A DNA stretch of 64,000 nt, from contig VCMS01000248.1 in the NCBI GenBank assembly GCA_022539475.1, positions 80,956 to 144,955 of the forward strand, in the 5' to 3' direction. Positions 31,689 to 63,199 of this stretch are shown here, piece by piece. The notes under the pieces were generated by a model. It was given only the letters and a program-made list of their open reading frames with translations. It searched no databases and was not told the DNA's origin. Both the position numbers and the translations under genes were made by a program. The DNA comes from Gracilaria domingensis. Its lineage: Eukaryota; Rhodophyta; Florideophyceae; Gracilariales; Gracilariaceae. How positions within the stretch are numbered: position 1 is the stretch's first letter; each line of letters begins with the position of its first letter.

Positions 31689-31828
31689 GCCCGCGGGCGG
31701 GGAGGTCCGGTCGTGTTAGGGTACCTACCCTAACACGACCGATCCCCCCCGCCCGCGGGCACGTTCTAGCCACATTCCGGCGCCTTCCCGGGACCTCCCA
31801 AAACCCACCGCCCCGCAGTGATTTCGCT
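31689..31828 (+). repeat. E1 left terminal inverted repeat
   Basis: About 140 bases, matching 57,580-57,719 in direct orientation and 56,440-56,599 inverted. It contains the 32-base near-palindrome at 31,709-31,740: GGTCGTGTTAGGGTA, CC, then its complement, flanked on both sides by GCCCGCGGGC. The repeat ends at GTGATTTCGCT. Confidence 0.85.
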
Positions 31829-32044
31829 ACACCCGGCCGCCGGTACGTTAGCGCCGCTGTCCACGTGTATTAGCGGGAGTAGGCTGTACATGAAAGTGAA
31901 TGAGTGTACTCTTGACTACTATGCAAAGCATTTGAAGAGCACGATTAGAGAGCGCGACCATTGCTCGCGTGAGTCATCATTGCGCGAACTCCATGACTCA
32001 AAAGCGTACAATCAGCTTGTGAGCGGCCACGGACAGGACACAGA

Positions 32045-32187
32045 CGAGACTGGCAGTGCGCTGGGAGGAGCTGCCGAAAGCGGGGGTGCCCAGCGTAAGT
32101 CGCCATTTAAAGGCTCGCCTCCGTTGTTGTATCGTCCAGAGCGAGCGTATTGTTGATATACACCTTTCACTGCAATAGCTGTTCAAC
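32045..32187 (+). promoter_or_regulatory. Terminal promoter of the ParB-oxygenase gene
   Basis: The block from GACGAGACTGGCAG to GCCTCCGTTGTTG is almost identical to the sequence directly upstream of the methyltransferase-SET gene at the other end of E1, about three differences in 85 bases. It contains a TATA-like TTTAAA at 32,105-32,110, about 78 bases before the ATG, followed by GGCTCGCCTCCGTTG. The block is also open as a possible small protein frame from 31,890, so a leader peptide cannot be excluded. Confidence 0.5.
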
Positions 32188-35100
32188 ATGAAGCCAACTC
32201 GTGTTCGAAAGCGTACACAAAGCGTGACTCCTCGCACTCGGCGGAGCACTCGATCATTGCAAGGTGGAATGCGGGTTTCTCTGCAGATGGATATTGAGAA
32301 TGAAGGAAAGGTGATAGTCGGGGAAGCGTTGTTGCATGGAATTGGAAGTGTTCTACGCCGCGAGTTGAACGGGAAGCAATTGGACCCAGGTCTTGTGGTG
32401 GTTCATAATATTCTCATCAGTCGAAGCGGTCAGACGTTCTACCCTTACCGGGCGGAGGGCCTGGATCTTCTACAATACATCCAGGATCTCCGGACGGCCG
32501 CTCCTTGGGATGAGAAAATGATGGAACCGGTGGCAGCCAGCATTCCGGCGTCCAAGCGAGGAACGGTGAGCGCTATGAGTGAGGTGATGACGCCGAGAAG
32601 CCGCACGGAGCCAATTCGAAGTTCATCAACACCGAGAGGTAGCGCATCAGTAGCACCTCCGCGGGCAGGTCCGTCGTCTGTTACGAAGCGGTCTATGGAG
32701 ACGAGAGCATCCCCAGCTACGAAGCGGACAGGTCAAACAAAGTCTACCTACGCTACGAAGCCCACTGCGTCGAAAAGGGCATCTCCTGCGATGAATCAGA
32801 CCGTCGACACAAGGGGATCTTCTGCGTCGAAACAGACGGTTCAGCACGGGACGGCTGTGCGAGAAGAGGAAGATGAGATCATAAAAGGTCCCCTTCCAAA
32901 CGCGGATGCGCAATCCGCACAAGGAGCTGGTCCATCTGTACCCCAAACTGCACCAGAAACTGCGGAGCAGCAGGACGATGACGTTGTGCTTCTGTCCGCA
33001 AGAATGGCACGTTCAAGTGTTTCTGGCGAGCGGTCTGGAACACAAGGGACACCTACTCGGAGCAAGACGTACAGACGAATTCGTCAGAAGGTACCAAAGG
33101 TGAACCTCAATCAGTACCGGATGGTTGTTGTTACTGTTGACATCACTCTGGTGGACACTCCGCCCAATTTACTCCGTGGAGTAAGTAAACGCCACGTTGA
33201 AGCCCTTGTGAAGCGTATGGAGGAGCGGGGGATATTGCAGTCGATGGGTTCTCCAGTGGTGGCGTTACAAGATACTACTACGGGAGACAGGGATATTGAC
33301 AAGGGACGCCTAACAAAGAAGTGCTTCATTGTAGATGGTTTCCATCGTCTGAAAGCTATACAATATTTGGCAGCGACTGGTGCACCGAAGTGGAACCGAT
33401 TAGCCAAGTTTTGGCGTTGCAATCTGCTGATACGAAGAGATGGGAGAACCATTGGGATGAAGGAATTGTTATGTGTTGCTTCGTACCTCAATGAGTCGAC
33501 GAGTACCATGCGAAGGATGATGTTTGCAGACAAGATACACTCTATAGTTAGTGTGGTCGCCATTCTAATTGAAGATGTTGAGGGGGTGACGCCAGCAGAC
33601 ATGGATCCTGCAGAAGTGACAGAAGTGTTGAAGGAGAGCCAACTGATTGGGACTGTGCAAGAGCGTCAGTATCTGAGATGTGCCAATGTCGCCCTGCAAC
33701 TCATGTCTCGTGAGGGAATGCTGGCCCATTTCGAGGATATATGTGAGAGTGTGAGTGACATAGGTCTCACACATCTGTCCCATACTCCACTATATGTTTT
33801 GGATGCCGAGGAGTTTTCCTTCATTCTTGATTGTCTTCAGATGTTTCTATTGAAGGGCAAGTCGACGAAGACAAAGCAATGGAAAAGCTTTGAGGAGGTT
33901 CGAGGTTTCTCTTATGATAGAGCAGTGTCTCTGTTCCGCGCGGCTCGAGCAGTGAGGAATGAACTGAACGAGGAAGAGTCGATGGAAGTGTTCCTGAAAC
34001 GCGAAATCAGTCTGTCTGCTCCATCGAATGAAGATGACGTTGAAGACCCAGACAACAACGCAGCTGTGAATCAGTTCCTTTTGGGACAAGTTGTGAACTT
34101 CAACACATTGCCGCGTGTTCGGAGCAGGATGAACTCAATTAGAACTGCCACGACTTCCGTTCAGAATCGATTGCGGACGATGCTCAAGGTAATTCCGCCC
34201 CCCGCACCAGTGAAGCAGTCCGTTACGAAGAGGAGGACTCCAACTGCTGCTGCTGCAACATCTGACAGTGAAGAAGGGGAGCCGCGAAGAAGTGCACGAG
34301 AACGGGCGCACGTGAGTTATAGGGAAATTGAGCACGGCCGAAATCGAGGTGCCATAGAAGTTCTGGATAGCTCTGAAGAAGAACAGCGGGCTCCGCCGAG
34401 AAAGAAACCGAGAAATACTTTCACACAACAGATGAGATCTACTCTGAACAGCATGACACCGGATGACCTGATGTCTCAACTAAATGAACATGTGCTGAAA
34501 GGAAGGTCGATGAAGGTTCAGATCGTGGCATTGGAAGAGGGAGCGAATTGGGGAGAACGCAGGCAGTTCTGCATTTGTGGATGACGAAGAGCTTCTTTCT
34601 GTGACGGTTCCACGGGTTGTCACCGTCGAGAAAGATGCTGCGCCAGACGATCAGCAAGAGACAGGTGGGGGGTCATTTGATGACGAGTTACCTACAGCTC
34701 TTCCGGAATCTGAGGAGCACGGACTTGTTAGAGGAGACCCATATGATGGCCCACCGAACCCATCATGGTGCGGGTATGTCAGGCTGAGACCGCAGTAATG
34801 GCAAGGGAAGAACGTAATTGATCACAAGGACCCCTGGTTCAGAGTCATTCACTTGCCGAAGGGACATAGGTCGGAGCTGCTAAGTGTCTCGAATCTCAGA
34901 GATGTACACCAACTTGTCTTTTGGCACGCTGCAAGGGCTGAACATCGCCTACGGGCGGAGACATTTGGTATGCAGTATCCTCGTACTCGGCCGACAGGTA
35001 TGGATGATGAAGAGGTGCTGTGGGTTGCTGCGAAGGAGCATGACGAATTTGGGCAAATGTTCTTCGTCCGAATGCACGCTGAGCTAAGGCAGAATGGATA

Positions 35101-36106
35101 TTGCGTGCTTGATGGGTTTGCGACGGATAATGGTGTCCCTAAATGAGAGGAGTTGGAAGAAGTTCGGGAGTTCTGAGATGTGTCGGGGAAGTTGGTGGAC
35201 TTTTTCGAGAATGAGTATGGAGCGATGCCGGATATACTGGAAGGGGAGGAACAGAAGTCGTTTGTTCAAATAATCAACGATGATGAAGGATGGAAGGACC
35301 GTAGCGATGGACAATTTCAGGGGAGAGTGATGTCGACACGTTGGGGTACGGTGGAGAAGCCGGAGGATAATGAGGAGCTCAGGTGGGTTGTAAGGTCGCG
35401 TGCTTTACTTGATGTTCGAATGGGTACAATTGCTGCGGCTTTGGGACTATGGGACAATGAAAGGGAAGCTGTGAAGATGTACACTCCGGAAACTGGTAGT
35501 CGATTTCTGGGGACGACGAGAAAGTGCAAGCGCCAGACGCTGCACACCGACTTCAGTGGTCTAGTTACGAAGGAAACAATGAATACTGGTAACCCCGGAT
35601 ACTTTGTAATGGCCTCTGGGAAAGAGGGCTTTCCTCTCTGGGTGAGCGCTGGAAGCCATCAACTGGTGGGGATGAACAACCAACAGTTGCGAGTGATGTC
35701 GGAGGTGTATCCAGCGAAGAAGATAATCATCCCACCGTACTTTGTATTCGTGGGCCGTGGTGATGTGACACATGCTGGAGCAAGTCGGAAGGACAAGGTG
35801 GATAGGTCCGAGTCTATGGATTTGCTGGTTAGATACCACATGTACATGGTACCGGAGGGCTACGCACTACCTGATGCTGTTCATCGGGTGCGGGATTTCG
35901 GACCCACGTTTGTCAATGGTGACGAGGAGGAGGAGGCGGAGGATGAACTGTTGTCCGATAAGGAGGGTGGGGCGGTTGACATGGAAGAAGACCAAGTGGT
36001 CGTGGAGATTGGTGTGGAAGCGGACGCCGGTAGAACTGCAGTGCTCGAGAGTAGTAGTGATGACGATTTGCCAATAATGAGGCTGCGAGCGCCTCGAAGT
36101 CGATGA
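32188..36106 (+). pseudogene. ParB-like / 2-oxoglutarate-Fe(II) dioxygenase fusion, E1 copy (broken)
   Basis: An inferred ~1,305-residue protein. The N-terminus is basic, then comes a Ser/Thr/Ala-rich repeat-like linker (about 120-300). A ParB/sulfiredoxin-like fold covers about 305-430, with the GxHR-like signature VDGFHRLKAIQYL near 381. A helical region and a basic, NLS-like linker with RKKPR follow. The C-terminal third is a double-stranded beta-helix oxygenase with the iron ligands HTD (35,543-35,551) and His in DVTHAG (35,771), plus the 2-oxoglutarate Arg in LLVRYHMY (35,831). An acidic tail ends the protein. Lesions: a one-base insertion at about 34,548, and stops at 34,796 (TAA), 35,144 (TGA) and 35,174 (TGA). 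The E2 copy is intact at all four sites. The iron and cosubstrate residues survive. A role in DNA or chromatin oxidation is an inference. Confidence 0.75.
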
Positions 36107-36370
36107 GAATGAGATGATTACTAAATTATGAGTGTCTTGCGAGTATTAAGAGTAGTATACTATTGCAAGGCTATACATATGAACATGGAAAAGGTGCGGC
36201 AGGCTGGTAATTGAACAAATGTCATACGTCTTTGGTCCAGTTGCGTCTAATTGCAACATGTCACATGCTCGGTATCGTTAACATCATCGGTGGCACCATT
36301 CAATTCGCAATTGAACATGTAGCGTCCTGACACTTCTGAAACTGCACTTAAGGTTGCTTTTAAGAGAAGT

Positions 36371-37263
36371 ATGAAACTGAGAAGTCTATGCAGTTCCTGT
36401 CTATGCAGTACTTGTGGCAGTATGGTCACTGTATCAGAAAAAATGGCAGAGGAACAGAGAGACTTGGCGGAAATTTCACCCAATACCTTGTCTAAGTTCA
36501 TATATGCCAATGGTTACGGTATATTAAATTCCGTTGATGGAACGTTGAGAAGAGAAGGAGAGTCAATTCCAGAAGAGGTTGTGAAGTGTATGAAGTTCAT
36601 TGACGAACGTTTTGGTTTCGGACTTGTCACAGGGGGTGATGGGGGCGACGTGGAGGGGAAAATGGAAGGACTCGGAGACTATAAGTTTGGTGTCTCGGCG
36701 AATCATGGAGCTTTCCTCCGTTTCTCTGACGAGAGGAGGATCACACCCTTGACCACACTGTTGACGGACTACTGTTTTTGGCAAGGGATTTGAATAGGAG
36801 GCATGGTATTGTGAATGATGATGGGAAGGGGTTCGTGGAGACCAGAAGTGATAGTGGCCTTCCCAATTTCGTGTACAACAAACTGTGGCAGTGGAGAGAA
36901 GAAGTGAATTCTGCTATTGGGGACCTGTTGCAGAAGATGGATGCGTTTGTTATCTATCCCAGCGATAAAAGTTGCGAAATTGTGGACAAGCGATACACAA
37001 AAGGAAGCGGAGGAGCAAATCTTGTGGATAATGAACCGAGATTTATTGATACGGATGACTTCGTGACGTTCGGAAGTGCTTTGAACGACGGGCCTTTGCA
37101 TGAGGTAGGCGTGTACGGCGTTCACGTCAAAGAAGATTGTATCCCGGGTGGAGTACACAACCTGTTCGAAAGCGTGGAGGATGTACATTCGACAATTATG
37201 CTGGTGGCTCTGTTGTACGGCTACGAGGAAAAGCAGCACGACAAAAACCAACATGAATCATAG
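36371..37263 (+). pseudogene. HAD-superfamily phosphatase paralogue 1, E1 copy (broken, nucleophile missing)
   Basis: Related along its length to the intact HAD gene that faces it at 37,316-38,188. Shared blocks include VDGTLRREGESIPEE, VKCMKFIDERFGFGLVT, the SANHGA segment and the motif IV region FGSALNDGPLHEV. The first Asp of the DxDGT motif, the phosphoryl-accepting nucleophile, is replaced by Ser (NSVDGT), and the E2 copy shows the same loss (SSVDGT). The frame breaks at about 36,738, where E1 lacks roughly 20 bases present in E2; homology then continues in another frame from HTLDHTVDG to LYGYEEK. It is either a pseudo-phosphatase that later decayed or a dead duplicate. Confidence 0.7.
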
Positions 37264-37315
37264 AAGGGTATTGAGATATATACGACACTTTTATTACTGA
37301 GATCTCATATCCTAG

Positions 37316-38188
37316 CTAAGTATTACAGGCATCGTAGCACTTGAAGCAAATTCCAAGAGCATTTCTAAACCATTGACACTTGCATTTTCTGTACCCGTAC
37401 AGTTCTGCCACCCTTCTGATGGTCTCATGCACGTCCTCCACCCCATCAACAAGATATGTTACCGCTGCTGGAGGGTCGTCTCCCTTCACATGGACTGCCA
37501 GGGTTGCCATTTCATATAGAGGGCCATCATTGGAAGCATTCCCGAAAGCAACGATTAAATGTGTGTGGAACTGGGGGTCTTTTTCAACCAAGGCTAGCGC
37601 CCCACTATTTTTCGTGAAACGAATGTCCCCTATGTCACAGTTTTCATCTTGAGGGTACGCAACCAGGTTCGGAAAGGATGTCAACACTTTTGAAATACCG
37701 CAGTTAATTTCTGTTTTCCACTTCGACAGTCCATTGTACGTGAAGTTAGGGAGTCCACTGTCTTTTCTACTGCTCACCACTGCTTGTTGACGCTCTTCGT
37801 GAAGTCCGTGCGATTCATTTAAGGAGAGTGCAAGTCTCTCAAGTTCGGCTGCACATCTTTCGTAACCTTCCCTGTCAAGGTCCTGATCAATTTCGGTACC
37901 ATTGGATAATCTCACCCGTGCGCCTTGGTTTCCAGAGATGCCAAAAGTGTAGCCACCCAGGTGCTCCATGAAACTCTCGGCATCCTCTATATCTCGCCTA
38001 GTAGCAATTCCGAAACCAACGCGTGCATTGATGTACTTGATGCATTTGACTGTTTCGGCAGGAATGTTCTCCCCAGCTTTTTTCAGAGTACCGTCAATAT
38101 CACTAATCACGGCGTAGCCATTTTCGAATATTTCGTTAGCCAGCTGCTGAGTAGTTACTTCTTGGGCTCTAACTTCTGAGTTATACAT
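37316..38188 (-). CDS. HAD-superfamily phosphatase paralogue 2 (Cof/trehalose-phosphatase-like)
   Basis: 290 residues from ATG 38,188 (a GTG 26 codons upstream is possible). The four HAD motifs are visible: motif I SDIDGTL with both Asp residues, motif II IATRRD, a Lys-bearing motif III region, and motif IV FGNASNDGPL. The cap insertion between motifs II and III fits the C2-cap subfamily that hydrolyses sugar phosphates (trehalose-, sucrose- or mannosylglycerate-phosphatases). The substrate is unknown. Convergent with paralogue 1, with only about 50 bases between the stops, as in a duplicated inverted pair. Unlike the other HAD copies it is intact. The C-terminus ends in a Cys-rich tail (CKCQW...CFKCYDAC). 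Confidence 0.8.
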   Translation of the reverse strand: MYNSEVRAQEVTTQQLANEIFENGYAVISDIDGTLKKAGENIPAETVKCIKYINARVGFGIATRRDIEDAESFMEHLGGYTFGISGNQGARVRLSNGTEIDQDLDREGYERCAAELERLALSLNESHGLHEERQQAVVSSRKDSGLPNFTYNGLSKWKTEINCGISKVLTSFPNLVAYPQDENCDIGDIRFTKNSGALALVEKDPQFHTHLIVAFGNASNDGPLYEMATLAVHVKGDDPPAAVTYLVDGVEDVHETIRRVAELYGYRKCKCQWFRNALGICFKCYDACNT

Positions 38189-38814
38189 GTTTTGAAAGCT
38201 TTCGAAAGGGTTCGTTTTGCAAATGGGTGTGGGTATACGAATGAGAAGGATGTGATTGATGTTCACAAGGTGTTTCGTAGTATAAAAAGAGTCTAAGAAC
38301 GACCATATGCGGGTATTGTAGTACTGTTTTAAAACGTTACTACGACGAGAAGCTTTTGCATCGATTTGCAGTAAAGAAAGGATGATTTACTCATAAATTA
38401 TATGTACGGGTTCAAGTGGGTAAAGAAAACTATGAATATCTTCAACATGAGCTTAGAAATCAAGATCAGTAAAACAACCTCCATTATGGGTTGAAACCCA
38501 TAAAAGGTGTACCTTACTTTAAACGGGTGCCCCAAGTATTGCAAAGGCTTAGTTCTTCAGAAATATCACAATTTTGTACTTGTTTTGTTACTAGTATCGT
38601 GCACTTTAATGATGTGGAATGACCCTTTTCCATCTAGCAAAAACTTAGCCAGGTATTAGTGATAAGGGATGTAGGATTTAAAGGGGCATATTTGAACCAC
38701 AGAAGGACGAACAATATAAGTAATGTAATAGGAACAGGTCATTTCGCTAAAGTAACTTTTATGTTTAACTATCTCTAAAAGGTTTACAACACCGAAACGT
38801 CATGTGTTCTAACC
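38189..38814. other. Spacer between two minus-strand genes
   Basis: About 630 AT-rich bases within E1; no gene seen. It probably carries the promoter of the HAD gene. The stretch 38,480-38,510 holds a short imperfect repeat (ATGGGTTGAAACCCAT). Confidence 0.5.
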
Positions 38815-39699
38815 TCAAAGCTGGGGAAATGGGGAGGGGGATAACTTTTCCTTAACAACGTTGACGTAGTTTGTATGAAAAGGAGCGGGGTCACCGCCTA
38901 CGATGTTTCTTTCTTGGCGGGAAAAGTCGTAGAAGTACGCGTTCCTAAACTGAAAGTCGGAGAAAGAAGTAGGGAAGCCAACGAGAGTTTTCCCATATGC
39001 AAGAAGTCGCCCAACGGTCTCTTCCAGGTTGAAAGTAGTACCTGTCTTAAGAGAAACTATCTTCAACAGCTCTTTCATTATTGTGAGCACAACCGTACTG
39101 CACTCCGCAGCGACTACGTCCATAGGAATGAAATCTCTTGAGGCCCCGACGATGTTGAACGCTGATAGCCACACGAGCTTCTCATAATAGCTTACGAGAA
39201 ATGTGTCTTCGTCGACAACCCCGCAAGTGAGACCCATAGACCTAAACCTGTCTGCAACGTTGGAGGCCCACTTTCCTGTTGCGACAGTGAGACCATCTGG
39301 ACTTTCAGGAGTGACACCATCCTGCGGAGCTGCGGTTCTTGAGGGGACACCAACGTATAGGACAACTTTTGAACATTTGTCCACACCGAGCTTCGAAAGC
39401 AATGGTATGATGTCTCCATTCTGGAAGAAAACGAGATTCTCTCTGAGCGAATAAGGGCAAGCCTGAATTACGGTCTCCAGGGTGTTCGTTCTTTCACAAA
39501 CTAGTATCGGTACATCAGAAAGATGAGAGGTAGCAGCCATGCTGCAGAATTCGTGTGCGGAAATGACTATATCTTCTTCGTTCGCCAGCATGGTACCTAT
39601 ACGCCCGCTTCCAACAATAACGGCCCGAGTCCTTCGGGTGGGAGATGAGGCCTGAGGGACGTCAGAGTATCTGGGACTCGGAGGCGGAGTCGGAGGCAT
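38815..39699 (-). CDS. PanE/ApbA-like dehydrogenase (ketopantoate reductase fold)
   Basis: 294 residues from ATG 39,699. After a Pro-rich leader (1-25) there is a Rossmann dinucleotide motif, VIVGSGRIGTML. It is followed by a segment like the NADP-domain end of ketopantoate reductases (SLRENLVFFQNG, then VVLYVGVPSR). The helical C-terminal domain begins with YYEKLVWLSAFNIVGA, matching the conserved Lys-bearing helix, and ends with the FRNAYFYDF segment. Ketopantoate reductase works in pantothenate synthesis, but many family members reduce other 2-oxo acids. Remoteness from typical PanE makes the substrate uncertain. It is intact, unlike most E1 genes, and is an unusual metabolic passenger for a transposon. 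Confidence 0.6.
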   Translation of the reverse strand: MPPTPPPSPRYSDVPQASSPTRRTRAVIVGSGRIGTMLANEEDIVISAHEFCSMAATSHLSDVPILVCERTNTLETVIQACPYSLRENLVFFQNGDIIPLLSKLGVDKCSKVVLYVGVPSRTAAPQDGVTPESPDGLTVATGKWASNVADRFRSMGLTCGVVDEDTFLVSYYEKLVWLSAFNIVGASRDFIPMDVVAAECSTVVLTIMKELLKIVSLKTGTTFNLEETVGRLLAYGKTLVGFPTSFSDFQFRNAYFYDFSRQERNIVGGDPAPFHTNYVNVVKEKLSPSPFPQL

Positions 39700-40182
39700 G
39701 TCGGACTAGGAGTTCATTGCAAGTGTTCGATTGTTTTTGTGTGACGATAAAAAGGGAAGATGGGGCGGAGAACTGCTGGGGTAAAGAGTGATACTTAAGT
39801 ACAAACGTTTGGGAAGCGCAGAACGGGAACATGGTTCACTTTGTGAAAGTGAGCGAAATGTATGATATGTGATTGTACTGAATGCATGATAGGGCTTGTA
39901 TGAGACGACAAGCCACAAAGTGTGATGATGTTTTATGAAAAGTAGGTGGAAGAGTAGAAAGTGTACAATGAATGAAACTGATTTCGAACCTGAGTTGTAA
40001 AGTAGTTATAAAGTAAGAGTTACGGGGAGCTTGAATACAGGATGAAAGGAGCCATTTTGGCTTCATAAATGACGTGCACGGGTTCTATAGCTTCACTCGG
40101 ATTGCCATAATCTTCTTTTTTATTGAGGTATAAAAGGGGGGTGTGTCTGGGAAGGACGGGTTTGGCGTTACTGAAGTTATCG
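39700..40182. promoter_or_regulatory. Divergent promoter region with a TATA box for the epimerase gene
   Basis: Region between divergent PanE-like and epimerase genes. TATAAAA at 40,129-40,135 lies about 50 bases before the epimerase ATG at 40,183, a good eukaryotic TATA-box distance. Confidence 0.5.
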
Positions 40183-40888
40183 ATGTTCAGTATGGATTCT
40201 CGTTTAATTATAGCGCCATCAATTTTGGCGTCAGACTTTGCTCGCCTTTCAGATGAAGCGAGTGCAATGGAAGAGGCTGGAGCGGAGTGGCTGCATATAG
40301 ATGTAATGGATGGTCATTTTGTGGCGAACCTTACTGTTGGACCGCCAGTTTTGAAAGCGTTGCGGAGGGATACGAAATTGTTTTTGGACTGTCATCTGAT
40401 GGTATCAGATGCTGGGTGCTGGATAAAAGACCTTGCAGAAGCAGGCGCAGACGGAGTCACATTTCATATCGAGAGTGTGGCTAAGGGACTAGAAAAGTGC
40501 AAGGTATCAACTGAGGAGGAGAACGTGGTGTTGAAGGAATTATGTAACCGAATTAAAAGGATGGGAATAGGTTGGAGTTGCGTTGCGCCCGAATACGTCT
40601 ATAAAGGTCGTAGAAGCACTTATGAAGGAAGGAGTTGTAGACATGTTATTGTTGATGACGGTGGAGCCAGGGTTTGGAGGACAGGCGTTTATGGGGGGTG
40701 TTCTTGATAAGGTGCGACATGCAAGGGAGTTGTACCCAAGAATAGGGCTACAGGTGGATGGGGGTATTGGACTGAGTACTGTGAAAGGAGTAGTGAAGGC
40801 CGGTGCAAACATTTTAGTTGCACGATCTGCCATCTTTGGCTCGAGTAACCCAGCTCATGTCATAGCTGGTTTTCGAAAGGTTGGTTAG
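40183..40888 (+). pseudogene. RPE: Ribulose-phosphate 3-epimerase with one frameshift
   Basis: TIM-barrel enzyme interconverting ribulose-5-phosphate and xylulose-5-phosphate in the pentose-phosphate and Calvin cycles. From ATG 40,183 the first frame contains APSILASDFARL, the metal and acid residues in HIDVMDGHFV, and DCHLMV. At about 40,570 an apparent extra G (ATAGGTT) shifts the frame; homology resumes as VGVALRPNTS, MTVEPGFGGQAF, QVDGGIG and VARSAIFGS. All active-site residues are present across the two frames, so this may be a sequencing error or a very recent mutation. No transit peptide is obvious, so the product would be cytosolic. Type is given as pseudogene because of the break. 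Confidence 0.85.
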
Positions 40889-41527
40889 AGATAGTAGCAT
40901 AAAATTATTGTTTATTATATTGTTACCTTTACGTGTTATCACGACTATATTCTCCGTCTCCATTGAAGATGTATTTCTCTTGTATCACAACCGGGAAAGG
41001 ATGTGAGAGAACATCAATATATCCCCAGTGGACGCTGAGAGGGAGGATGAACTACTCTACGTGCTATCATTGTTACCCATCCGGTGTCGAGTGGTGACAT
41101 ACTCTTTTTTTGTCACAACCCACACAGGATGTGACGGAAGAAGAAGATGCCCCCAGTCGAGACAGAGGGTTAGCTACTCTAAGTACAATCACTAGTCCCT
41201 AGCTTGCCTCCACTATCAATATCTTCCTGTTTTGCTATAACCATCGAGTGAGGTTATGGCGGAAGAGAAAAATATCGCCGGTCGAGGCGAGGTGAGTGGG
41301 GATTATGTGAGAGCGAAAGAGGAGACAGAGAGGTGGCGCTTAAATAGTGGAAGGTGCGGAGGTGTACAGTACATGTTTTGGGGGAAATGGGATGAGGGAA
41401 ACAGGGACAATCATGGTGCTGGATATAGCCCGTGTGGTTGGACAGTGGGGGTGGACAGCACAGTTTAGCTCGATTGCACTGTATCGCAGGGGAAACTTCG
41501 ATCCAACTACTACTTTTTCTTCTGAAG
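40889..41527. other. Intergenic within E1
   Basis: About 640 bases. Two similar stretches (about 40,980-41,050 and 41,110-41,180, both with TCACAACC, GGATGTGA and CCCCAGT motifs) look like diverged direct repeats about 130 bases apart. No gene. Confidence 0.45.
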
Positions 41528-42420
41528 ATGTCGAACGGATACGTGAAGGATGAGGAGCTGTTGGCGCTGTTGGAGGGGAAGGAGGTACCGCCGACGCCGT
41601 CACCAAAGCGGGAAGAGGACGTGATTACGGCGGCTGGTCGGATGTCGCAGAAGAAGGAAGTGGCCGATGAAGGAAAGAAGTGTGAGGCGAGGAGAGGGGA
41701 TGGTGATGAGGTGGAGCAGGGAGTAGAATTGGAGGTGGAGGGGGTCGCAATGGAGAGAAGGGGTGCGGTGCATCTGAGTCAGTTAGAGGTTGGAGACCAG
41801 ATAGAGAGTGGGGGCGGAGAGGGTGAGAGGGAGATGCGGTTTGTGGGGGAGATGAAGGCGAGGGTGGGGATGTTGGGGTTGGTGATGAAGGAGCGACTGG
41901 ACGATGGAATTGTGGAGATTGTAACGGAAATGGGGGTGTGGTGCTGAGTGGGGGTGGTAGTGGTGTTTCGGTTGAGGCGATTTCGAGCCTGCGGAATTCG
42001 TTGTCGGTATTGGGAGTGGAGATGAGGAATCATGTGTATGGGATAGTGGAGTGTGCGGGAAGGGAGGTTGGAGAGTTGCGGGAGGAGAATAGGGTTCTGA
42101 ACGAGAGGTTGGACGTGCTGGAGAAGGAGGTGAAGGAGCTGGGCAAGAGGCAAAGATTGGTGGAAGAGGAGGCGGTGAAAGGAGGTGTGGAGGGAAAGAC
42201 GGAGAACGGAAGTGTGGGAAGGGCGGCGGTGCAGAAGGGGTCCCCTGTGACACCGAAGACAAAGGGTGATGGGGTTGGGGATGGGAAGAGCCGTCTGAAG
42301 AAGAGGCGTAAGGAGATGGAGAAGGTGGTGGAGGAGGTGCCGCGGGAGGGAGTCGGAGCTCCGGTGGTGACTGGGTTTAGGAGTGCGGCGGAGGTAGCGC
42401 GGACTGCGAAGGGATTCTGA
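41528..42420 (+). pseudogene. Glu/Gly-rich coiled-coil protein, frameshifted
   Basis: Not recognised. Frame 1 runs from ATG 41,528 to a TGA at 41,945 (139 codons); the downstream frame resumes with VLSGGGSGVSVEAISSL and continues to 42,420. Together about 297 codons. The second part contains a clear coiled coil (ELREENRVLNERLDVLEKE) and a basic patch (SRLKKRRKEMEK). The switch lies at a GGGGG run (41,932-41,936), so a homopolymer sequencing error is plausible. The sequence is highly purine-rich. The short start, acidic middle and basic tail suggest a chromatin-associated or structural accessory protein, but this is only composition. Confidence 0.45.
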
Positions 42421-43767
42421 GGGGACAGGAGGAGAGAAGGATGGGAGGGATGTGAAGCCGTTTTGGGGCGAGGCGGGTGTACGAGAAGGGGGAGAGTTGT
42501 CCACCTGACTTCTACAAAATGACGTTTGCGGAGACGGAGAGAGAGGATGCGAACGCGTGATGGGCGAGAAATGGGTAAAGAGCGGGGGTGGTGTGGACTG
42601 GGAAGAAGTGATGGGATGATTGAGGTGGGATGAGTTGCGATTGGCATTGCAACATGGGAGAAAATGGAAACACAAACTAGCACGAGTGCAGTTTTGAGAG
42701 AGGGTCGCGGAAAAGAGTGAATGGGGTGGTGCGGCGAAGTAGAACTTCTACAAAAACTAGGGGACCCAAGAACTAAACTGCGCGAAATGGAATTTAATAT
42801 TCCAAAATTTCTTAATTTTTTGAGTGCCAGCCTCTGCCACCCCCTCGCGCGCCCCGAATAGCCCCAAAACTAGCTTAGTTTCCAAAGCGAACAGACTATA
42901 TTCCACTTTGCAGAACACAGACGTAGCGCCTTGTTTGACTAAGCTGCCTTTTCGGTCGTCCCCTTGTGCGAGGCGGCCCACGACAATGGCACTGTGGACA
43001 TCGTGGGCAAAAGCCACAAGTTATGCAGGCTTTTTGCTTGTGTGGGCACGAGACCATGAGATAAGGAGTTAGGGGACAAGAGATCACTCGAGCTGGCCGG
43101 AGATGATTGGAACTTGCGTCCGGAAGGACAAGCTAAGCTTTTTCAGACTAATACCCTTGATACATGAAATGAATTTCTAGACAGATCAATAATTTTGAAT
43201 AAATCTATCGATGTACTTTTTTGCTTCTTGGAGTCCAAAACTTTAGCATCTGTGAGGTTGGTTCAAGATGTTGGAGGAGGTTCTTCTCCTCGAATCATGT
43301 TCAAAATTAGTAGAATGGTCGAAAAGACACCAATAAACACTTCAGTGAAAAAAGGAACGAGATTGCTTTAAAGCGCAAATTTATAGAAACTGGATGTGTA
43401 ACATGGGGGGTGTCCGTTCTATCGCAAATTGCGTGTTAATATTATGATGACCAATGGCCATTCATTGGTTTTGTACGTGATGGACAGTATCTACCTTCCC
43501 GGCAAGGGTAATGTTGAACACAGGCTAATGTTGAACACTTAGAACATCAGGAGAGAACTCCTTTTGTAGCCTGCATTAGCCTCGCTTTAACCGAAGCCAA
43601 TTGGCCTCAGAAGCTATAGCTAGGCAAATCTCGTCATGAGTAGCTCGCTCAATGCAAAAAACGCGCCACTTTCAAACGAGAAGGTGTATGCCCACATCTT
43701 CTCCGTCATCTGGGTGTCATTCTTTGAAAGTCGCTGAGCATTTCAAACGCAAAGCGCGCCAACTACG
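42421..43767. other. No clear gene; possible transposon debris
   Basis: About 1.35 kb. A minus-strand frame 42,757-43,017 and scattered frames around 43,360-43,500 give peptides without secure family assignment. A CAAACGC/GCGTTTG-rich stretch lies before 43,768. Confidence 0.4.
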
Positions 43768-45678
43768 ATGCGAACTCTGACACTATATAAACAATGGCGC
43801 TTAAACGCAGGAAGTACCGAACAATGTACTGTGATGCGAGCTTTACAACATGGTGACCATCTCTATGCGCCGCCAAACACAGGAAAAAAAAACAGGAAAG
43901 CATTTCATCGCACTGTGCGCATTCAAAAACAGAAAGCTATAAGTCTTCTTGACGCAAAGACTCTAATTCGCAGTATTTCTCGAGCGACAAACTTATCAGT
44001 CGGCACCGTCGCAAGCATCAAGTCTTCCATGCAAGAGTGTGCGAATAAAAAAGTTCCTTACGATGACAGCGGCCACGAAATTACGCAAGGACGCCCGACA
44101 GTTCTCAGCTACCACGAGGAGCGCACTATTGTGGCAAGGCTAGAAGAAGTCGCCAATCTGTAGAGCAAACCCCTGCGACTAGCGCAATGGGGAGACCTCC
44201 ACTAGGATGTCCGAGTCCCACTCCCTAATAGGGCAGACTCAGCAGAAGAGCCCTCTGTCCGTACTCGTGTCGAGTGACAAGCCGGGTGTAAGACCGGAGA
44301 CGGTGCCTGGATATACCTACAGAGGTGAAAACAGAGAAGGAAATAGTGACCAAAAGTGGTGAGGAAACCCAGAGAAAGGGGGAAAGAAAGGGGAAAGGAA
44401 CCGAGATCCCTCCAGGCAAACCAACCCAGAGCGGAGCAAGGCCCGTGCCAACCGGCGGAAACAGGGCCGGAAGCGGAGCGACACACCACAGTGGTGCCGA
44501 AATAAACCCAATACTGGGGCGGAAACGATACCCAAACCAGGGGAAACAAACAGAAAGAATGTGCCTCACAGGGACACGCAGTGTACAAAACGGAGCAAAC
44601 AACAAACAGAAACAACAAACAAAAACAACGATAACAACAGAAATATACCTGGTAAGGGTTTCTAGGTGATCCTGAGGGGATAGTTATGCAAGAACCACAC
44701 GTGGTTACCGGCCCGAGGGGGATGTAAACCTACGAAGGTTGCATGAACTAGAACCAAGCCTTGGGTTGAAGAAGGCGGCTTCAGTTGGCCATTTACTTAG
44801 AGGCTCAAGGGTGCGATCACCCGAGCATGTATACTACTACTACAGTAACCGACAACTACGGTGCACACCTCCCGAGGTCCGTACAGGTGGACAACCCACT
44901 GTCAGGGTGCCAGATACTTCCCAGCGGGGATGGCACAAATATCTAAATGCCAGATCCACCACGTGGACTACTACAATACCTACCAATAGGTTGCAATATC
45001 CAATCCACCTAGCAAGGTTCCACAGAACACACAAGAATTCTCCCAATTATTGGGGCCAGAGTCCACATCACAATACACCTTCCCAAAGGGATTCCATCTC
45101 CTCAGAGCAAGACAAATAGTGCCCCAGTACGGGATGGCATTGCTCCACACAATCATGGGTTTGCCGTATCCAAGGAAACACTCAAAACAATTGCAGCCGA
45201 GATAGCCGGAGACGGACGCGATGGCTTTCCTGGCGGCTATCCGACCGATGATTGGGTTCGCAGTTTTAGGGCTGGTCATCGAGACCTTACGTTTAGGAAG
45301 CTGGAAAATAAGGAAGGCGCGAAAATAGCGGCAGAAGATCCAATCCATGTGGAGACTTTCGTGAACGCTCTCAGGCAATGTGAACTCTTGCAGATGCTAG
45401 TTTTTGGCGAGGGTCGTCCAGAAATTGGCAAGGGTCGTCCAGTAAATTTTTTGAAAAAATATCGAGATCAATTATTTCAAAATTTGGAGATAATTGCTTG
45501 GGTCGTCCAGAATCGCTGTGCAGTAAATACTGGTGGGTTTTCCACTCATGCTAGTTCTTTAGTCGAGGGCTACCTGAACGGTATTTCGCGAAGTCTAGGT
45601 TCAGTTTCCATTAAGGTGCACATTACACGATACCTTCTGCGGAATGATACCCTGCCACGCATGGAATACTGGTGCTAG
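43768..45678 (+). pseudogene. pogo/Tigger-type transposase relic interrupted by ~0.95 kb
   Basis: Two pieces of one DNA-binding region. Piece 1 (43,768-44,160) has a helix-turn-helix (LIRSISRATNLSVGTVASIK) followed by GRPTVLSYHEERTIVARLEE, typical of the N-terminus of pogo/Tigger transposases. Piece 2 (open from about 45,100, to 45,678) has the CENP-B-type second helix-turn-helix (GFAVSKETLKTIAAEIAGDG, then YPTDDWVRSFRAGHRDLTFR and NKEGAKIAAE). The catalytic DDE core is missing. Between them is about 0.95 kb of purine-rich non-coding DNA, either a later insertion or, less likely, an intron (a GT at 44,160 and AG near 45,120 are possible borders). This is a dead older element inside E1. Confidence 0.6.
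44163..45110. repeat. Insertion inside the pogo-type relic, origin unknown
   Basis: Non-coding, AG-rich (44,325-44,420 and the CAAACAACAAACAGAAAC-type stretch near 44,600-44,640), then a segment with tRNA-box-B-like GGGTGCGATCACCC at about 44,808. A SINE or retroelement 5' region is possible, but no target duplication, poly-A tail or reverse transcriptase is seen. Confidence 0.35.
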
Positions 45679-45809
45679 TACAGATGATGCCCATTATGAA
45701 ATCATACCGTTTTATTCGTATCTATTCTTCTATCGACCGCTTTTGCTAACCACTACTTCGCTATATTACATGTACCATTTCCCCATGATGGAGCGGGTGT
45801 AGGCGCAAT

Positions 45810-45960
45810 CTGCGGCAGATGCCGCAGACTGCACCTCCACCATAGTGCTGTATCGGTAGAACAAATACGCAATCCGAGAGGATGATGCGCGAAGCGCCTC
45901 ATCCTCTCCGTTCCTCATGTAGGGAACCATGCCCAGATGCATGGTTCCCTACTTGAGGAA
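45810..45960. repeat. Cluster of three hairpins
   Basis: Three consecutive inverted repeats: CTGCGGCA/TGCCGCAG at 45,810-45,827; 15-base arms at 45,876-45,908 with one mismatch; and 22-base arms at 45,911-45,960 with one mismatch and a 6-base loop. Clustering of hairpins suggests a foldback element end or a structured transcript. Confidence 0.7.
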
Positions 45961-46002
45961 CCTGCACCTGCAACTCGTGAGCTACGTCCGCATCAAAAGT
46001 CA

Positions 46003-46517
46003 TTTACCTGTATGCGCAAGCAGAAAGTATCCATAAGTTAGTCAATGCTCCGTTGGATACATTTGAAATGCGATGGAACGTACCATTGATAAAACAAAAC
46101 AGAAACGTTGCGCTAGAAAAGTCGAGAGACCTAGTAACTCGCAAAGGGAAGAAGAAGAAGGAAAGAGATCGGTTAGATTACCAGCCCACCATCATCGTAA
46201 AGCGCGAAAGGTGTCGAAACGAGAACTCACAAGCAAGGACACCAAGAATGCCTATGCAGCAAACATACCGCAAGATGCTATAAACGAGAGAGCAGCTTAT
46301 GTCCCAACCAAGCACCAGAATCGCCTATCCCGAACAGTCAGACATCGATCTTGAGAGACGAAATGAAATTGGTCGTTTACCTGTATACGCAAGCAGAAAG
46401 TATCCATAAGTTAGTCAATGCTCCGTTGGATACATTTGAAATGCGATGGAACGTACCATTGATAGAGCAAAACAGAAACGTTGCGCTAGAAAAGTCGAGG
46501 GACCTAGTAGCTCGCAA
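46003..46517 (+). repeat. ~142-base direct repeat, two copies 373 bases apart
   Basis: 46,003-46,144 and 46,376-46,517 differ at only about six positions. They flank a Lys/Arg-rich open stretch (46,160-46,350). The arrangement could be a small LTR-like relic or an internal duplication. No polymerase or integrase is present between them. Confidence 0.75.
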
Positions 46518-47175
46518 GAGTAACCCAAAGCCGTTTTCTTGCCGTTTACATGTCGCAGAGCGCGAAGAGACGTGGTGAGGATTGGTTAGTTTAGAACAAA
46601 GATACGTAGAAGGATATGGAAGCACGTACGAAAACACTGCAGGGAAAGACTGCACGGAATTACGGATGCGGATGATGTCCGCTTTATGGAGGCGTCCATT
46701 AGGCGGACATGAAGCGTACTTCATTTTCTTCCCCGCACTCTACTTCGTAGCGAGTGCGAGGGCGGAGAAAGGTACGACGTAGCGCCGCTCCTGATCTGTG
46801 CCATCTACATCTTCGCGTTCTACTCCGGCGGAGTAGAACGCGCGTCGGTAACGGTAGGTCGGACGCCGGAGGCGCGGCTGCGGCGGCGGAGGGAAGAGAT
46901 TTATTTTTCTGTGCGAGATTGGACAGGTGTACAGCGTACAACGTTGCGAAACCACAGGTTTATAACCAGCGGTAGATAATACGAGAAGTACACCCTTGTG
47001 TTGAGGTCGACGTGTACCTACGTTCCTTTTCGAACGAAAGCACGTGATTTAAACTCAAAATATATTCTCCGTTCTCAGCTTGACGTCGATCTTGACTGTC
47101 GCTCGACCTCCTTTTCCCTTTGGACGACCTTTCTTTGCAGTCTTTGTCGTCGTTTCTCGTTCATTTCTTCTTCCC

Positions 47176-50100
47176 ATGGTCTACTACTGTACACATAAGA
47201 AGCGTGGGTGCCCCTTCGTTACTCGTCGAGGAGTCTTATCTCTTCAACAGCATGTCAACCATTGCCCGTTTCGTCTGAAAGCAGCGCTGGAAGACGACAA
47301 TAGGCGGCCCATTCGGAGAAGCAAGCTTCTCAAGCTTTCCGCGCCCGCGCCCGCATCTTCCGAAACGGTCACTGCCCCTTGTCGCCTTCCCGAGCCTCCG
47401 GTGTCCGAGGACATCTTCGACCCCACTCCGTGCGCCCCTCCCACTCCGGACACTTCGCATTGTGTTTCTCCTTCCCCGGGTCCCGCGTCATTAGAGCGAG
47501 AACACAGAAGCAGTTCCCGTCCAGTGCCTTCTGAGGAGACCCTCGGTGATTTGCATATGGATTATCTCACGGTTTGTCTGGCTTCAGTAGCTTCCAACCT
47601 TGGTCATCGTGAGGCAGACGAGCTAATTGGGCTACTTTGGGACCCGCGATTCTCGCAAATTCGATTCAACGAGACCATAACAAGTTTCAAGCGCTGTACA
47701 GAACTGAAGAACGCCATTTTCGAACGATACGCCTCAAAGGACGGTTTCAATCCAAGAACTGTCTCGCCAGAAGGATGTAAGTTCAGCGCCACCCTCTACA
47801 CGAGAGACCCCGTTCAGACACTTGTGAAACACCTCCAGTTGGCTAACAACGAAAACACATTCTTCCACCCTATACCTCAGACCCACCCTACGAAAATATC
47901 TCACCCCATGTCCGGCTCTCTCGCAAGAGACGCCACCTCAAAACTTAAGGAAATGGTCATGGGCTCTTTGGATAGTAGAATAGTGTGGTACTCCCAAGAA
48001 ATAAGTTACAGTGAATCTTTCGTAGGTCTTCTGCAGGTATACACCGATAAGTCTTCAACAACTCTAAAGCAAACATCGGTTACCGCCTATCCTCTTCACC
48101 TCATATTTCTCAACTTCTCCGACGAGCTTCGCCGTAAGTGTATCCGTGATGACCTCACAGTAGTGGCATACTTCCCTACCACACTGATCGAGGTTTCCGC
48201 ATCCGAAGCAGACGCAATGCCATTCGTTTCTAGCAAGTCTCTACGCGAGTCCAGGATGCAAATCCTTCAAGAATCTCTTCGTCAAGTCCTGGAGCCCATT
48301 CTAAATCTCACGCAGAAAGGTTTTCAGTTCATCGCCGAAGACAAACTAAGTCGAGTGTGCTATCCTCTGCTCGCAAGTTATTGTGCCGATATTTTTGAGG
48401 CTAAGGACATTCTGTCCATTCTTCATGGGACCAAAACGAAAAGCCCGTGTCATAGATGCAAAGCCCCTCGCTCATCTTTATGCAGTCCTATTCCCACCTC
48501 ATTCAACGGACGTTCTCAAAAGCACACGAAAAGCATCCGAAAGACATACACAGCTATCTTGCGACATGCACAAAAAGACGAGGCGGAAAGACGTCCACGT
48601 CGTGCGAAGGAGAGGAGATCTCAAGCGGATACTCTGATGCGTTCAAATTCCATATCTCTCATTCCTTCGTTCCTCGAAACTTCCGTAAGCCTTGGAATGA
48701 TCCCGGGATTGTCTCCATACAGTCTGTTCTCATTCGAACCATTACACAACTTGCCTCTCGGCATCTCAAAGCTGATAAAAACGGCGACAATCGAGAGACT
48801 GCAGTCAGACACCCTGTGCACCACAATAGGAACATCTGCATCGCGTTCATTTCGAACGATACGCACCCAACTTTTCAACCATGCAAACGCAATTCTAGCT
48901 GCCATAGAACGCGAATCTCCTGCCAAAGGTTTACATATCGATTTCTCCACGCAGGAGAAAGGCAAATCTTTGAATGGTATCTTCACGAAAGACGGTCTCC
49001 GTGGAATGCTGGAGGCCAAAAACTACAAAGCACTTGACATGGTCTTCCCTTTCAAAGCAGCATTCTTTGACATATGCTGTGGAGAACACGACGTTGACCC
49101 AATCACAACCGTTTTCTCTCAGTACTCGGACTTGCTTTCGACCTTATTCAGATACAATCGTGACCCGTATTGGACTGAAAGCTCTCTCCTGTGTCTTAGT
49201 TCGGAGATTGAAGCCTTCAAGCGTTCCGCAACAAAACCTCTGGCGGATTTTTATCCCTCCAGACTGAGAAATCTGAAGTTTCATCTTCTCGATCATCTCG
49301 TGGACGATATTCGCCGTCTGGGAAGTATCAAGTACTACGACGCAGGCATATACGAACATGAACACCTGCTATTTAAGAGACACTACAAAAAGACGTCCAG
49401 AAGAACAGCAACGGCTGTGGAGGAGACTATTCGCTCCATTGAGCATGGACATGTTAGAAAGCAATGGAATGGCAATACTCCTTACCAGCGTAATCCAGGT
49501 TTACGAGGAACTTCCACACACCTTCCTCGGTTTGCAATGAGAGGGCGTTCTTTCACTTTACGAGCTCTTCAACATTGTGTTTCAAGTATGTCCAGTTCAA
49601 AAACATGGACTGCTGTTAGAGAGATGTTCTCAAGTACGGACACAAGGTCGATTCTTGACCAAATTGGTGAACAGGCCCTTCCTCCTTTCCTCAGTCTCGT
49701 GAAAGAAACACTGGATGAGCACTCTATTATATACTTCCCAGAAAAGACAAGGATAACTCTGGTGAATTCTGCCCTCGTGAAAGGCGGTTTCGTTCCGACT
49801 CTTGAACACTTCGATTCGTCTTCTAAGGCACTTAAGCTGGGACGACCCAAATACCCCATCATCCAACGTGTCTTCGCTTCTCCAGCATTTGGTCCCAGTA
49901 GAAAGCCAAAGTTTTCCACTGTATTAGTAAGCGGAGAAGATTCAGAGACTTGGGTTGCCCAGGTAGTCGCTCTGATTCGAATATCTCTCCTTGATTCTGC
50001 ATTTACCGCACCAGAGGTGGCATTCGTCCAGTATTTCGAGGTTTTACCCCCCGCAACAAACATCGACCATATATTGAAATGCATATCTTTACGGTGGGCT

Positions 50101-50355
50101 ACAAACGATGAAAAGAACCACACTCTTCCGTTCCCTCGTCATTCCAAAGCGGAGACTATCGTAGAGTTAACTCCTTGGTATGGGATGGTTCCGGCTTCTG
50201 CGCTACAGGGAACTGTCCATGTTGTTCGATCAAACTACCCTGCTCCACCTTTTTGTCCTCCACTTCAATGGTTTCAACACCGATTCTACATCAATCGATT
50301 CTATCATGATTCAGATGAAGGACCAACTGAGCACGTTGATCTTGTACAGCTTTAA
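47176..50355 (+). CDS. Plavaka-type (CACTA-related) transposase
   Basis: 1,059 residues from ATG 47,176 (a TTG 32 codons upstream is ignored). Begins with a C2H2-like zinc finger (YYCTHKKRGCPF ... LQQHVNHCPF). The RNase-H-fold core has VYTDKSSTTLKQTSVTAYPL, carrying the first catalytic Asp. It continues with LHLIFLNFSDELRRKC and the diagnostic YPLLASYCADIFEA plus CHRCKAP region, which match Plavaka transposases of fungal CACTA-like elements. Further on is FEPLHNLPLGISKLIK, equivalent to the family's xxLHQ...G block. The frame is fully open, so the protein may still be active. Its stop overlaps the stop of the convergent gene within TTTAAA at 50,351-50,356. Assigning E1 mobility to it is reasonable but unproven. 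Confidence 0.8.
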   Translation: MVYYCTHKKRGCPFVTRRGVLSLQQHVNHCPFRLKAALEDDNRRPIRRSKLLKLSAPAPASSETVTAPCRLPEPPVSEDIFDPTPCAPPTPDTSHCVSPSPGPASLEREHRSSSRPVPSEETLGDLHMDYLTVCLASVASNLGHREADELIGLLWDPRFSQIRFNETITSFKRCTELKNAIFERYASKDGFNPRTVSPEGCKFSATLYTRDPVQTLVKHLQLANNENTFFHPIPQTHPTKISHPMSGSLARDATSKLKEMVMGSLDSRIVWYSQEISYSESFVGLLQVYTDKSSTTLKQTSVTAYPLHLIFLNFSDELRRKCIRDDLTVVAYFPTTLIEVSASEADAMPFVSSKSLRESRMQILQESLRQVLEPILNLTQKGFQFIAEDKLSRVCYPLLASYCADIFEAKDILSILHGTKTKSPCHRCKAPRSSLCSPIPTSFNGRSQKHTKSIRKTYTAILRHAQKDEAERRPRRAKERRSQADTLMRSNSISLIPSFLETSVSLGMIPGLSPYSLFSFEPLHNLPLGISKLIKTATIERLQSDTLCTTIGTSASRSFRTIRTQLFNHANAILAAIERESPAKGLHIDFSTQEKGKSLNGIFTKDGLRGMLEAKNYKALDMVFPFKAAFFDICCGEHDVDPITTVFSQYSDLLSTLFRYNRDPYWTESSLLCLSSEIEAFKRSATKPLADFYPSRLRNLKFHLLDHLVDDIRRLGSIKYYDAGIYEHEHLLFKRHYKKTSRRTATAVEETIRSIEHGHVRKQWNGNTPYQRNPGLRGTSTHLPRFAMRGRSFTLRALQHCVSSMSSSKTWTAVREMFSSTDTRSILDQIGEQALPPFLSLVKETLDEHSIIYFPEKTRITLVNSALVKGGFVPTLEHFDSSSKALKLGRPKYPIIQRVFASPAFGPSRKPKFSTVLVSGEDSETWVAQVVALIRISLLDSAFTAPEVAFVQYFEVLPPATNIDHILKCISLRWATNDEKNHTLPFPRHSKAETIVELTPWYGMVPASALQGTVHVVRSNYPAPPFCPPLQWFQHRFYINRFYHDSDEGPTEHVDLVQL

Positions 50356-52748: not shown

Positions 52749-52999
52749 GTTGTGGAGATAAACAGGGTAATGAAACGAAATTGTTGGGGAGCGGGGGAGG
52801 GGGTGGGGGGGGGGGGTGCATGGTTCAGATATTCCGGGAGACTCCGCAGTTCCTGCTTTTTAGGAATTTGAGGTGCCCAATGGGTCGCAAATATCGCCGT
52901 TACAGATGAAGAGCTCCAGTGTACATGTACAACAACGCGTATTGCAGGCAGCTGCAACACTCACAAGCATATTTACTTTCTATTCGGTACTGAACTCAT

Positions 53000-55900: not shown

Positions 55901-56136
55901 TTGGAGTTAGTGGCCTCCTCAAACATCTTCCTTGCCTCCGGAATATCCTTATAGTTCTCGGCGCAGAACTCCATTAGCCCTCTAAACCCCACGTCCCGTG
56001 GCCGATCAGGGCCTCCATCGCTGTTTGCCAAAGCATCGCGAAGAACCAAGAAAAGTCTGACATATGCATGGAACGCCGGAGGCGGAGCACTCATGTCGAT
56101 AGGATGTATCTCCTCTCCATCATCGGTGGAATTCAT
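53000..56136 (-). pseudogene. Beta-class amino-DNA methyltransferase fused to a SET domain (one frameshift)
   Basis: About 1,045 codons from ATG 56,136. Residues 1-440 are a novel helical region with a basic KKKQPKKKRK signal and an acidic Ser linker (YIDLVSSDGDDFE). The methyltransferase begins at about 470: motif IV is TDPPLNT (DPPY usually; the aromatic is Leu), then GGHFIIFCAMAQFHVW. After the frameshift come VMDMFAGTFSTGMACL, the SAM-binding motif, and KFLGCEKNRP. Motif IV before motif I is the beta-class order of N4-cytosine/N6-adenine methyltransferases. The C-terminus is a SET domain: GMGVFTEHKILAGETICHFYG, YINDAG and GEELYFNYGEKY. The switch at 54,127-54,141 lies at a run of six G (minus strand), where one extra base would join the frames. 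The function as a DNA plus histone writer is inferred. Confidence 0.8.
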
Positions 56137-56290: not shown

Positions 56291-56439
56291 GCCGCCTCGA
56301 GCGCGTGCGATAGCGTCGTGTGTCGGCCACGTCGCGATTCGGAGCTATTGCAAAGGTCGCGTATTGTGCTAATAGTCGCGGACCAAGTGAGTGTGAAGCG
56401 CTAGTTTTTTCTAGTTTGATATATATGCACGGCGTGGGC

Positions 56440-63177: not shown

Positions 63178-63199
63178 AGAAGGGTATTGAGATATATAC

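Follow-up and report, generated by a model that had tools for sequence, protein, structure and literature searches.

The stretch analysed here, hereafter the window, is 64 kb of a contig (C248) in the 77.9-Mb genome of the red alga Gracilaria domingensis, and it holds two copies of a Plavaka-type DNA transposon carrying a gene in which a ParB/sulfiredoxin-like (ParB/Srx-like) domain is fused to a 2-oxoglutarate/Fe(II) (2OG/Fe(II)) oxygenase. The gene lies at 32188..36106 (+) in the first copy of the element and at 58079..61990 (+) in the second, where it is divergent from a gene for a DNA methyltransferase fused to a SET domain. A first-pass annotation of this DNA had described the composite protein and proposed a DNA-targeted oxygenase with reference to the TET/JBP and AlkB groups of DNA-oxidising enzymes, PhyH-type spacing leaving the subfamily open; its anatomy has held up and membership in TET/JBP or AlkB has not found support, and it mentioned neither the broken state of the first gene copy nor the second copy at 58079-61990.

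The Plavaka-type element and its ParB-oxygenase gene

Comparison of copies shows that element copy 1 is a right-hand remnant, which begins at a palindrome and runs to the right terminus ...ACAGACG (31689..42923, +), and that copy 2 extends from its left end past the end of the window (45385..64000, +). The boundaries at 42923 and at the neighbouring 45385 are sharp, and the left terminal bases of copy 2 differ from those of other copies, in which the termini read CGTCTGT...ACAGACG. The Plavaka-type transposase (1091 amino acids, aa) is encoded at 47080..50355 (+) and matches PF18759 with an E-value of 1.5e-16 (61 bits, cut-off 26.3). A whole-genome search for the end patterns that tolerated at most two mismatches yielded 564 left and 572 right ends, and none in the reversed control. 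End pairing and target site duplications were examined with 71 left and 85 right ends, each out of 100 listed: nearest-end pairs, not checked singly, gave 48 distances of 6.4-24.3 kb, several of them within 10.1-10.8 kb and another six within 22.3-24.3 kb, and an exact 2-bp duplication flanks six of ten elements, the remaining four matching over 0, 1, 0 and 0 bases. According to Kojima (2025; PMC12730594), Plavaka types produce 2- or 3-bp duplications and end in TGT..ACA (PlavakaA) or CATCA..TGATG (PlavakaB); the duplications found here fit Plavaka, and the termini match neither type exactly. The element is a G. domingensis DNA transposon of Plavaka type, 22-24 kb long, and its near-identical copies point to recent amplification.

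Near the left end of the element there are GGGTCGTCCAG repeats in subterminal position as well as a direct repeat of 146 bp (45404-45513, 45999-46517), all of them possible transposase-binding sites. On another contig, G000:C82:172866-180587 is a 99% identical copy of window 37667-45385 that stops exactly where element copy 2 starts and abuts, on its far side, an inverted element left end; it is possibly an allele or duplicate without the copy 2 insertion.

An intact natural copy of the ParB-oxygenase gene (L009, 2478-6392, minus strand) encodes a protein of 1305 aa, here P0001. Compared with it, the gene at 32188..36106 is a dead relic, with an extra base near 34550 and in-frame stops at about 34796, 35144 and 35174, its N-terminal part persisting as an open reading frame (ORF) of 798 aa (32188-34584, +). 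The gene of copy 2 is frameshifted, with HTDF in one frame and THAGA and RYHMY in another. Eleven copies spanning the whole gene were compared (both window copies, L009-L012, L016, L019, L020, L022 and L024, with L009 also serving as reference), and two, L009 and L010, are free of stops and indels. Beside truncated copies at L017 and L023, open frames of about 925-2354 aa occupy either strand and overlap one another in several reading frames, a sign of long repetitive sequence.

From its N to its C terminus the protein consists of a variable region, the ParB/Srx-like domain, a conserved part taken as helical, a linker of basic character and, last, the oxygenase, and at no point of the protein does a Pfam model reach its cut-off. 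The ParB/Srx-like domain (33124..33507, +), delimited by motif conservation and sub-threshold matches, carries a D-G-x-H-R motif (DGFHRL, 33334-33351), the D, G, H and R of which are invariant in an 11-row alignment of this part that excludes P0008, P0012, P0013, P0016, P0019 and P0020 (P0012 reads DGVFR). Single members gave sub-threshold matches to GmrSD_N (0.016), DndB (0.025) and DGQHR (0.21), at E-values similar to which unrelated models also appear, and the profile of this part matched sulfiredoxin 6ky4 at 0.46, likewise below threshold. We take these four to represent one fold class, and with moderate confidence the domain can be called ParB/Srx-like, not ParB. The linker contains a basic patch (PPRKKPRN at 34393..34416, +; PPRKKRRK in P0001) that we read as resembling a nuclear localization signal (NLS). 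NLS-like patterns occur in 13 of 14 linkers, shuffled linkers yielding 0.3-2.0 each, and weak SUMO-interaction-like motifs occur in 5 of the 14.

The oxygenase part of copy 1 occupies one open frame (35180..36106, +), recognised from the ORF, its motifs and the predicted structure, and its core lies in that single frame: HTDF at 35543-35554, DVTHAGA with the distal His at 35762-35782 and LVRYHMY with the Arg at 35825-35845. The H-T-D...H...R core following a ParB-like domain and a basic linker, as described in the first pass, could be located piece by piece, in an order that the homologues keep, and the reported spacing of 20 residues from distal His to Arg was confirmed.

Oxygenase fold, homologues and the divergent partner

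Structure prediction of the oxygenase part yields a double-stranded beta-helix (DSBH), which was the structural check proposed with the first-pass annotation, and in the model both the distal His and the Arg fall on strands, where they would be expected. It was built from a shorter domain with a 16-row alignment that excludes P0013 and the G. domingensis gene models P0002, P0003 and P0018, a longer stretch with 11 rows (predicted local distance difference test score, pLDDT, 49.9) having been set aside. Among the matches listed (best 50 per search), the nearest folds are KanJ, SnoN, FtmOx1, AsqJ and others, these four being enzymes that we class as PhyH-type, and identity to the listed matches is at most 17%. 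TET/JBP and AlkB do not appear among those best 50, which excludes neither.

The sequence searches gave mostly negative results. The PhyH model PF05721, searched genome-wide with an E-value limit of 1, matched two other genes and none of the element copies. No 2OG-oxygenase Pfam model, AlkB-, JmjC- and P4H-type included, was listed for the protein at E up to 10, in a scan where the HMMER filters discard most matches above about 0.1. Tet_JBP (PF12851) had no match in the genome, the control genomes being prokaryotic, one of them matching below cut-off, and sensitivity poorly calibrated. PDB sequences searched with a profile of the oxygenase alignment yielded chance-level matches only, and hhalign against two PhyH proteins of the same genome, each a single sequence, gave nothing informative. 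Of the profile searches envisaged in the first pass, those with PF02195, PF05721, Tet_JBP and the AlkB-type models found no match to the protein. With PhyH-type best folds in addition, membership in TET/JBP or AlkB finds no backing. The protein is probably a member of the 2OG/Fe(II) DSBH superfamily with the PhyH-type fold nearest, as the predicted structure suggests; with PhyH-type oxygenases such as KanJ, SnoN, AviO1 and FtmOx1 it shares the DSBH, the HxD...H...R residues and a leading helix-strand segment, but it differs from them in its low identity and in that the Pfam PhyH model misses the element copies.

A search with the oxygenase half returned 12 proteins with E-values of 0.01 or less, among them two gene models of G. 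domingensis; a second search from a distant member added four proteins, and a third, by profile, three (one from G. domingensis). All homologues that are long enough show the same part order, and the identity of their oxygenase parts is 28-47% (P0004-P0012). Because this order recurs at such identities, the ParB-oxygenase arrangement is not a product of chance, and the fusion inside a transposon noted in the first pass is supported. In 11 rows chosen for spanning both parts (excluding P0013 and the incomplete P0005, P0008, P0016, P0019 and P0020), H1119, D1121, H1195, R1215, D383, G384, R387 and N435 (P0001 numbering) are invariant. Scans of viral contigs and prokaryote genome contigs found no relative, and tblastn against plasmids and phages gave nothing or chance-level matches only.

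Copies of the gene within G. domingensis were also compared for their variants, L001 being excluded because it duplicates the window copy. Variants private to single copies comprise 297 nonsynonymous and 121 synonymous changes and 10 stops, or 0.91 of the neutral nonsynonymous-to-synonymous (N/S) ratio; those common to two copies comprise 25 and 18, with no stops (0.51 of neutral), and those present in at least three copies 25 and 14, again with no stops (0.66). Given these values for the shared variants, small as their numbers are, the copies that spread seem to have kept the protein.

The partner gene of copy 2, a DNA methyltransferase (N6_N4 type)-SET fusion (53000..56136, -), is frameshifted at about 54127, and intact natural copies (L051 and L052) encode 1045 aa. 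The N6_N4 methyltransferase domain matches PF01555 at E 3e-15 and the SET domain scores 2.4e-7. The PDB sequences nearest to the motif I region are those of DpnA (1.2e-8), CcrM (3.7e-7) and MboIIA (0.0036), and both L051 and L052 contain DPPF, which we take to be an adenine-type methyltransferase motif. The likeness to these three adenine methyltransferases lies in the motif I region and in DPPF; unlike them, the partner is fused to a SET domain and resides in a eukaryotic transposon. At L049 (G000:C6:483851-484588) there is a diverged, distinct methyltransferase-SET gene with DPPY, and the genome therefore contains more than one methyltransferase-SET family.

Pairing was assessed with 128 oxygenase places that had been scored out of 601 candidates and with 129 of the 150 scored N6_N4 methyltransferase matches in the genome (of 328 candidates), 21 short fragments being excluded. 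A divergent methyltransferase lies 4.8-7.7 kb upstream of at least 29 oxygenase places; at one place a methyltransferase lies upstream in the same orientation, and at one downstream. Between the two genes there is a mirrored intergenic control region with palindromes of about 72 bp (56451..57708), the halves of which are inverted repeats of each other: 56460-56872 aligns with 57708-57302 over 418 columns at 89.7% identity. The promoter-proximal 100 bp are likewise inverted (56149-56248 versus 58019-57921, 96%), and in copy 2 a mirrored 1.9 kb separates the divergent start codons. The inverted 100-bp match was also found in 11 of the 28 loci searched, most of the others ending before it. Repeat comparison identified a single 72-bp palindrome at the start of element copy 1 (31689..31760). 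The palindromes at both places (31689-31760, 56451-57708) hold GTTAGGGTA...TACCCTAAC centrally, resembling a telomere-type repeat unit.

Substrate clues and readings of the pair

The C5-cytosine methyltransferase model PF00145 had no match in the 78-Mb genome, with 10 of 14 control genomes positive, and a search for the SRA domain matched neither the genome nor the controls and is therefore uninformative. Across 29 copies, L001 again being left out and 26 columns without a 70% majority omitted, transition rates are 0.0052 at CpG, 0.0049 at CHG and 0.0050 at CHH sites, and transversion rates 0.0051, 0.0050 and 0.0049. With transitions and transversions so nearly equal, the copies bear no sign of cytosine methylation and deamination. 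At A/T sites both kinds of change are less frequent (0.0031, 0.0028). C-to-T rates by trinucleotide range from 0.0024 (ACA) to 0.0083 (TCC), with CCG at 0.0082 and no consistent CpG effect, and CpG observed/expected is 0.84-1.00 in the measured parts of the element and 0.92-1.03 in two host stretches. An origin of the stops by deamination of 5-methylcytosine (5mC; CGA to TGA) was put to the test with these rates and is unsupported as a general process. An efficient eraser could itself conceal a deamination footprint.

The anatomy of the element and its genes is, the ParB-like label apart, very well supported; the layout, the mirrored region and the Fe/2OG residues can be read from the sequence, and the DSBH fold is predicted by the model. 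DNA is a plausible substrate of the oxygenase, given its ParB-like domain and the DNA methyltransferase encoded as its partner. We tentatively favour, at rather less than an even chance, an element-borne pair in which the adenine-type methyltransferase-SET protein would be the writer of a mark that the ParB-tethered oxygenase erases or converts. The ParB-like domain and the helical part would bring the oxygenase to DNA, perhaps to the element's own palindromes; the oxygenase would oxidise the methyl mark laid by its partner, N6-methyladenine (6mA) being the first candidate and a chromatin mark the second; and writer and eraser would jointly set the state of the element as silent, expressed or mobile. 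Conceivable, though doubtful, is a fuller version, namely a closed reversible DNA-mark circuit in a host without C5-cytosine methylation, with a writer (the adenine methyltransferase-SET protein) and an eraser (the PhyH-fold enzyme, tethered to DNA) co-expressed from a mirrored palindromic promoter that the ParB-like domain binds, the eraser representing a class of DNA demethylase as yet unnamed and distinct from TET/JBP and AlkB. Should DNA be its substrate, the oxygenase would stand apart from those two groups as a DNA-modifying dioxygenase, and the element would be an example from a eukaryote of a natural pair of writer and eraser for adenine methylation or chromatin; the epigenetic counter-measures of transposons would then extend beyond 5mC. 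The alga offers a tractable setting, with hundreds of near-identical copies, some of them intact, in which 6mA, N4-methylcytosine and 5mC are directly measurable.

Several points weigh against the writer/eraser pair. PhyH-fold enzymes mostly act on small molecules. The ParB-like label is drawn from a motif and sub-threshold matches; PF02195 (ParB_N) matched nothing in the genome up to an E-value of 1 and was not listed in the protein scans, and hhalign of this part against E. coli YbdM, a single sequence, gave an uninformative probability of 1.3. For as many as 99 of the 128 oxygenase places, the methyltransferase list contains no divergent match within 12 kb, which may be due to contig ends, deletions or matches beyond those listed, and the pairing is known from G. 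domingensis copies, the homologues P0004-P0017, P0019 and P0020 being known as proteins only. Shared variants are few, and their DSBH subset (7 nonsynonymous, 2 synonymous) is without sign of constraint. The controls of the PF00145 search were all prokaryotic, and an intron-split C5 gene could be missed. The relative Gracilariopsis chorda has about 8% methylation, mostly non-CG, according to a review (PMC8566409).

The last observation would also suit a TET-like anti-silencing role, in which the oxygenase oxidises 5mC laid by the host on the element. Such a role has been proposed for TET/JBP genes carried by fungal Plavaka, Kyakuja, Zisupton and other DNA transposons (Kojima, 2025; PMC12730594; Iyer, 2014, cited there). 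For the Gracilaria element it appears improbable: neither PF00145 nor the poorly calibrated Tet_JBP search found a match, transitions in the three cytosine contexts are near-equal and close to transversions, CpG is little depleted and the top fold matches are PhyH-type. An element that carries an oxygenase with a ParB-like fusion and lacks a cytosine-deamination footprint could instead hypermodify its bases, a thymine or methylated base being hydroxylated as a lasting, JBP-like mark, one that the transposase reads or that gives the element protection; with no Tet_JBP match, and no glucosyltransferase match among the scanned element ORFs, this has a slim chance.

The oxygenase might also hydroxylate or demethylate a protein, be it a histone, the transposase or the methyltransferase-SET protein, with its ParB-like part as a DNA tether. 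The SET domain of the partner, the varied substrates that PhyH-type folds take and, weakly, the NLS-like linker patterns agree with such a target, but no JmjC- or P4H-type Pfam match was listed for the protein, and we regard it as fairly unlikely. Decidedly improbable is an ordinary small-molecule oxygenase carried as cargo, its ParB-like part serving for regulation or localisation only: the nearest folds are antibiotic and alkaloid oxygenases, and the same element bears HAD hydrolase and ribulose-phosphate epimerase ORFs, yet the fusion to the ParB-like domain is retained across the divergent homologues, and a free metabolic enzyme would not need it.

Among known systems, the fungal TET/JBP transposons resemble the present one in that a CMC-type (Plavaka) transposon bears a 2OG/Fe(II) oxygenase, which is proposed to serve the element epigenetically; they differ from it in that here there is no Tet_JBP match, the folds are PhyH-type, a ParB-like domain is fused, the partner is an adenine-type methyltransferase-SET protein and the red algal host has no C5-methyltransferase match in one Pfam search. 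Sola1-1 of Ectocarpus encodes an accessory protein that joins a ParB-like domain to an N4/N6 DNA methyltransferase (PMC12477816), and such proteins are known in green and red algae, according to that paper, which cites Iyer (2011) and Petroll (2025). In both cases a giant algal DNA transposon encodes an enzyme of DNA-modifying type to which a ParB-like domain is fused, but in Gracilaria this enzyme is an oxygenase on the strand of the transposase, and the methyltransferase is separate, SET-bearing and on the opposite strand. The giant repeats of the protist Amoebidium are also large and gene-carrying, with Plavaka transposase, but the cargo named for them is tyrosine recombinase genes, and neither dioxygenase nor ParB turned up as a whole word in the main text (PMC11244446). 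The titles and abstract openings searched name no ParB-oxygenase fusion in a transposon, and a prior mention is possible.

Cargo ORFs and minor features

Between the transposase and methyltransferase genes of copy 2 lies an ORF of 382 aa (51600..52748, -) to which no function is assigned. In copy 1, a HAD-type hydrolase ORF (37316..38266, -) matches PF08282 at E 7.6e-12, and a broken relative of this ORF in opposite orientation, discerned by eye, lies downstream of the oxygenase within 36371-38266. A further ORF of 294 aa (38815-39699) has no Pfam match and by eye appears ketopantoate-reductase-like. Two overlapping ORFs (40123..40888, +), the first of which matches PF00834, represent a ribulose-phosphate 3-epimerase-like cargo; a 455-bp segment (40111-40566) containing the start of the epimerase ORF is present in copy 1 and a few others and cleanly absent from many listed copies. 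Outside the element, a perfect 26-bp inverted repeat with arms one base apart occupies 30039-30091.

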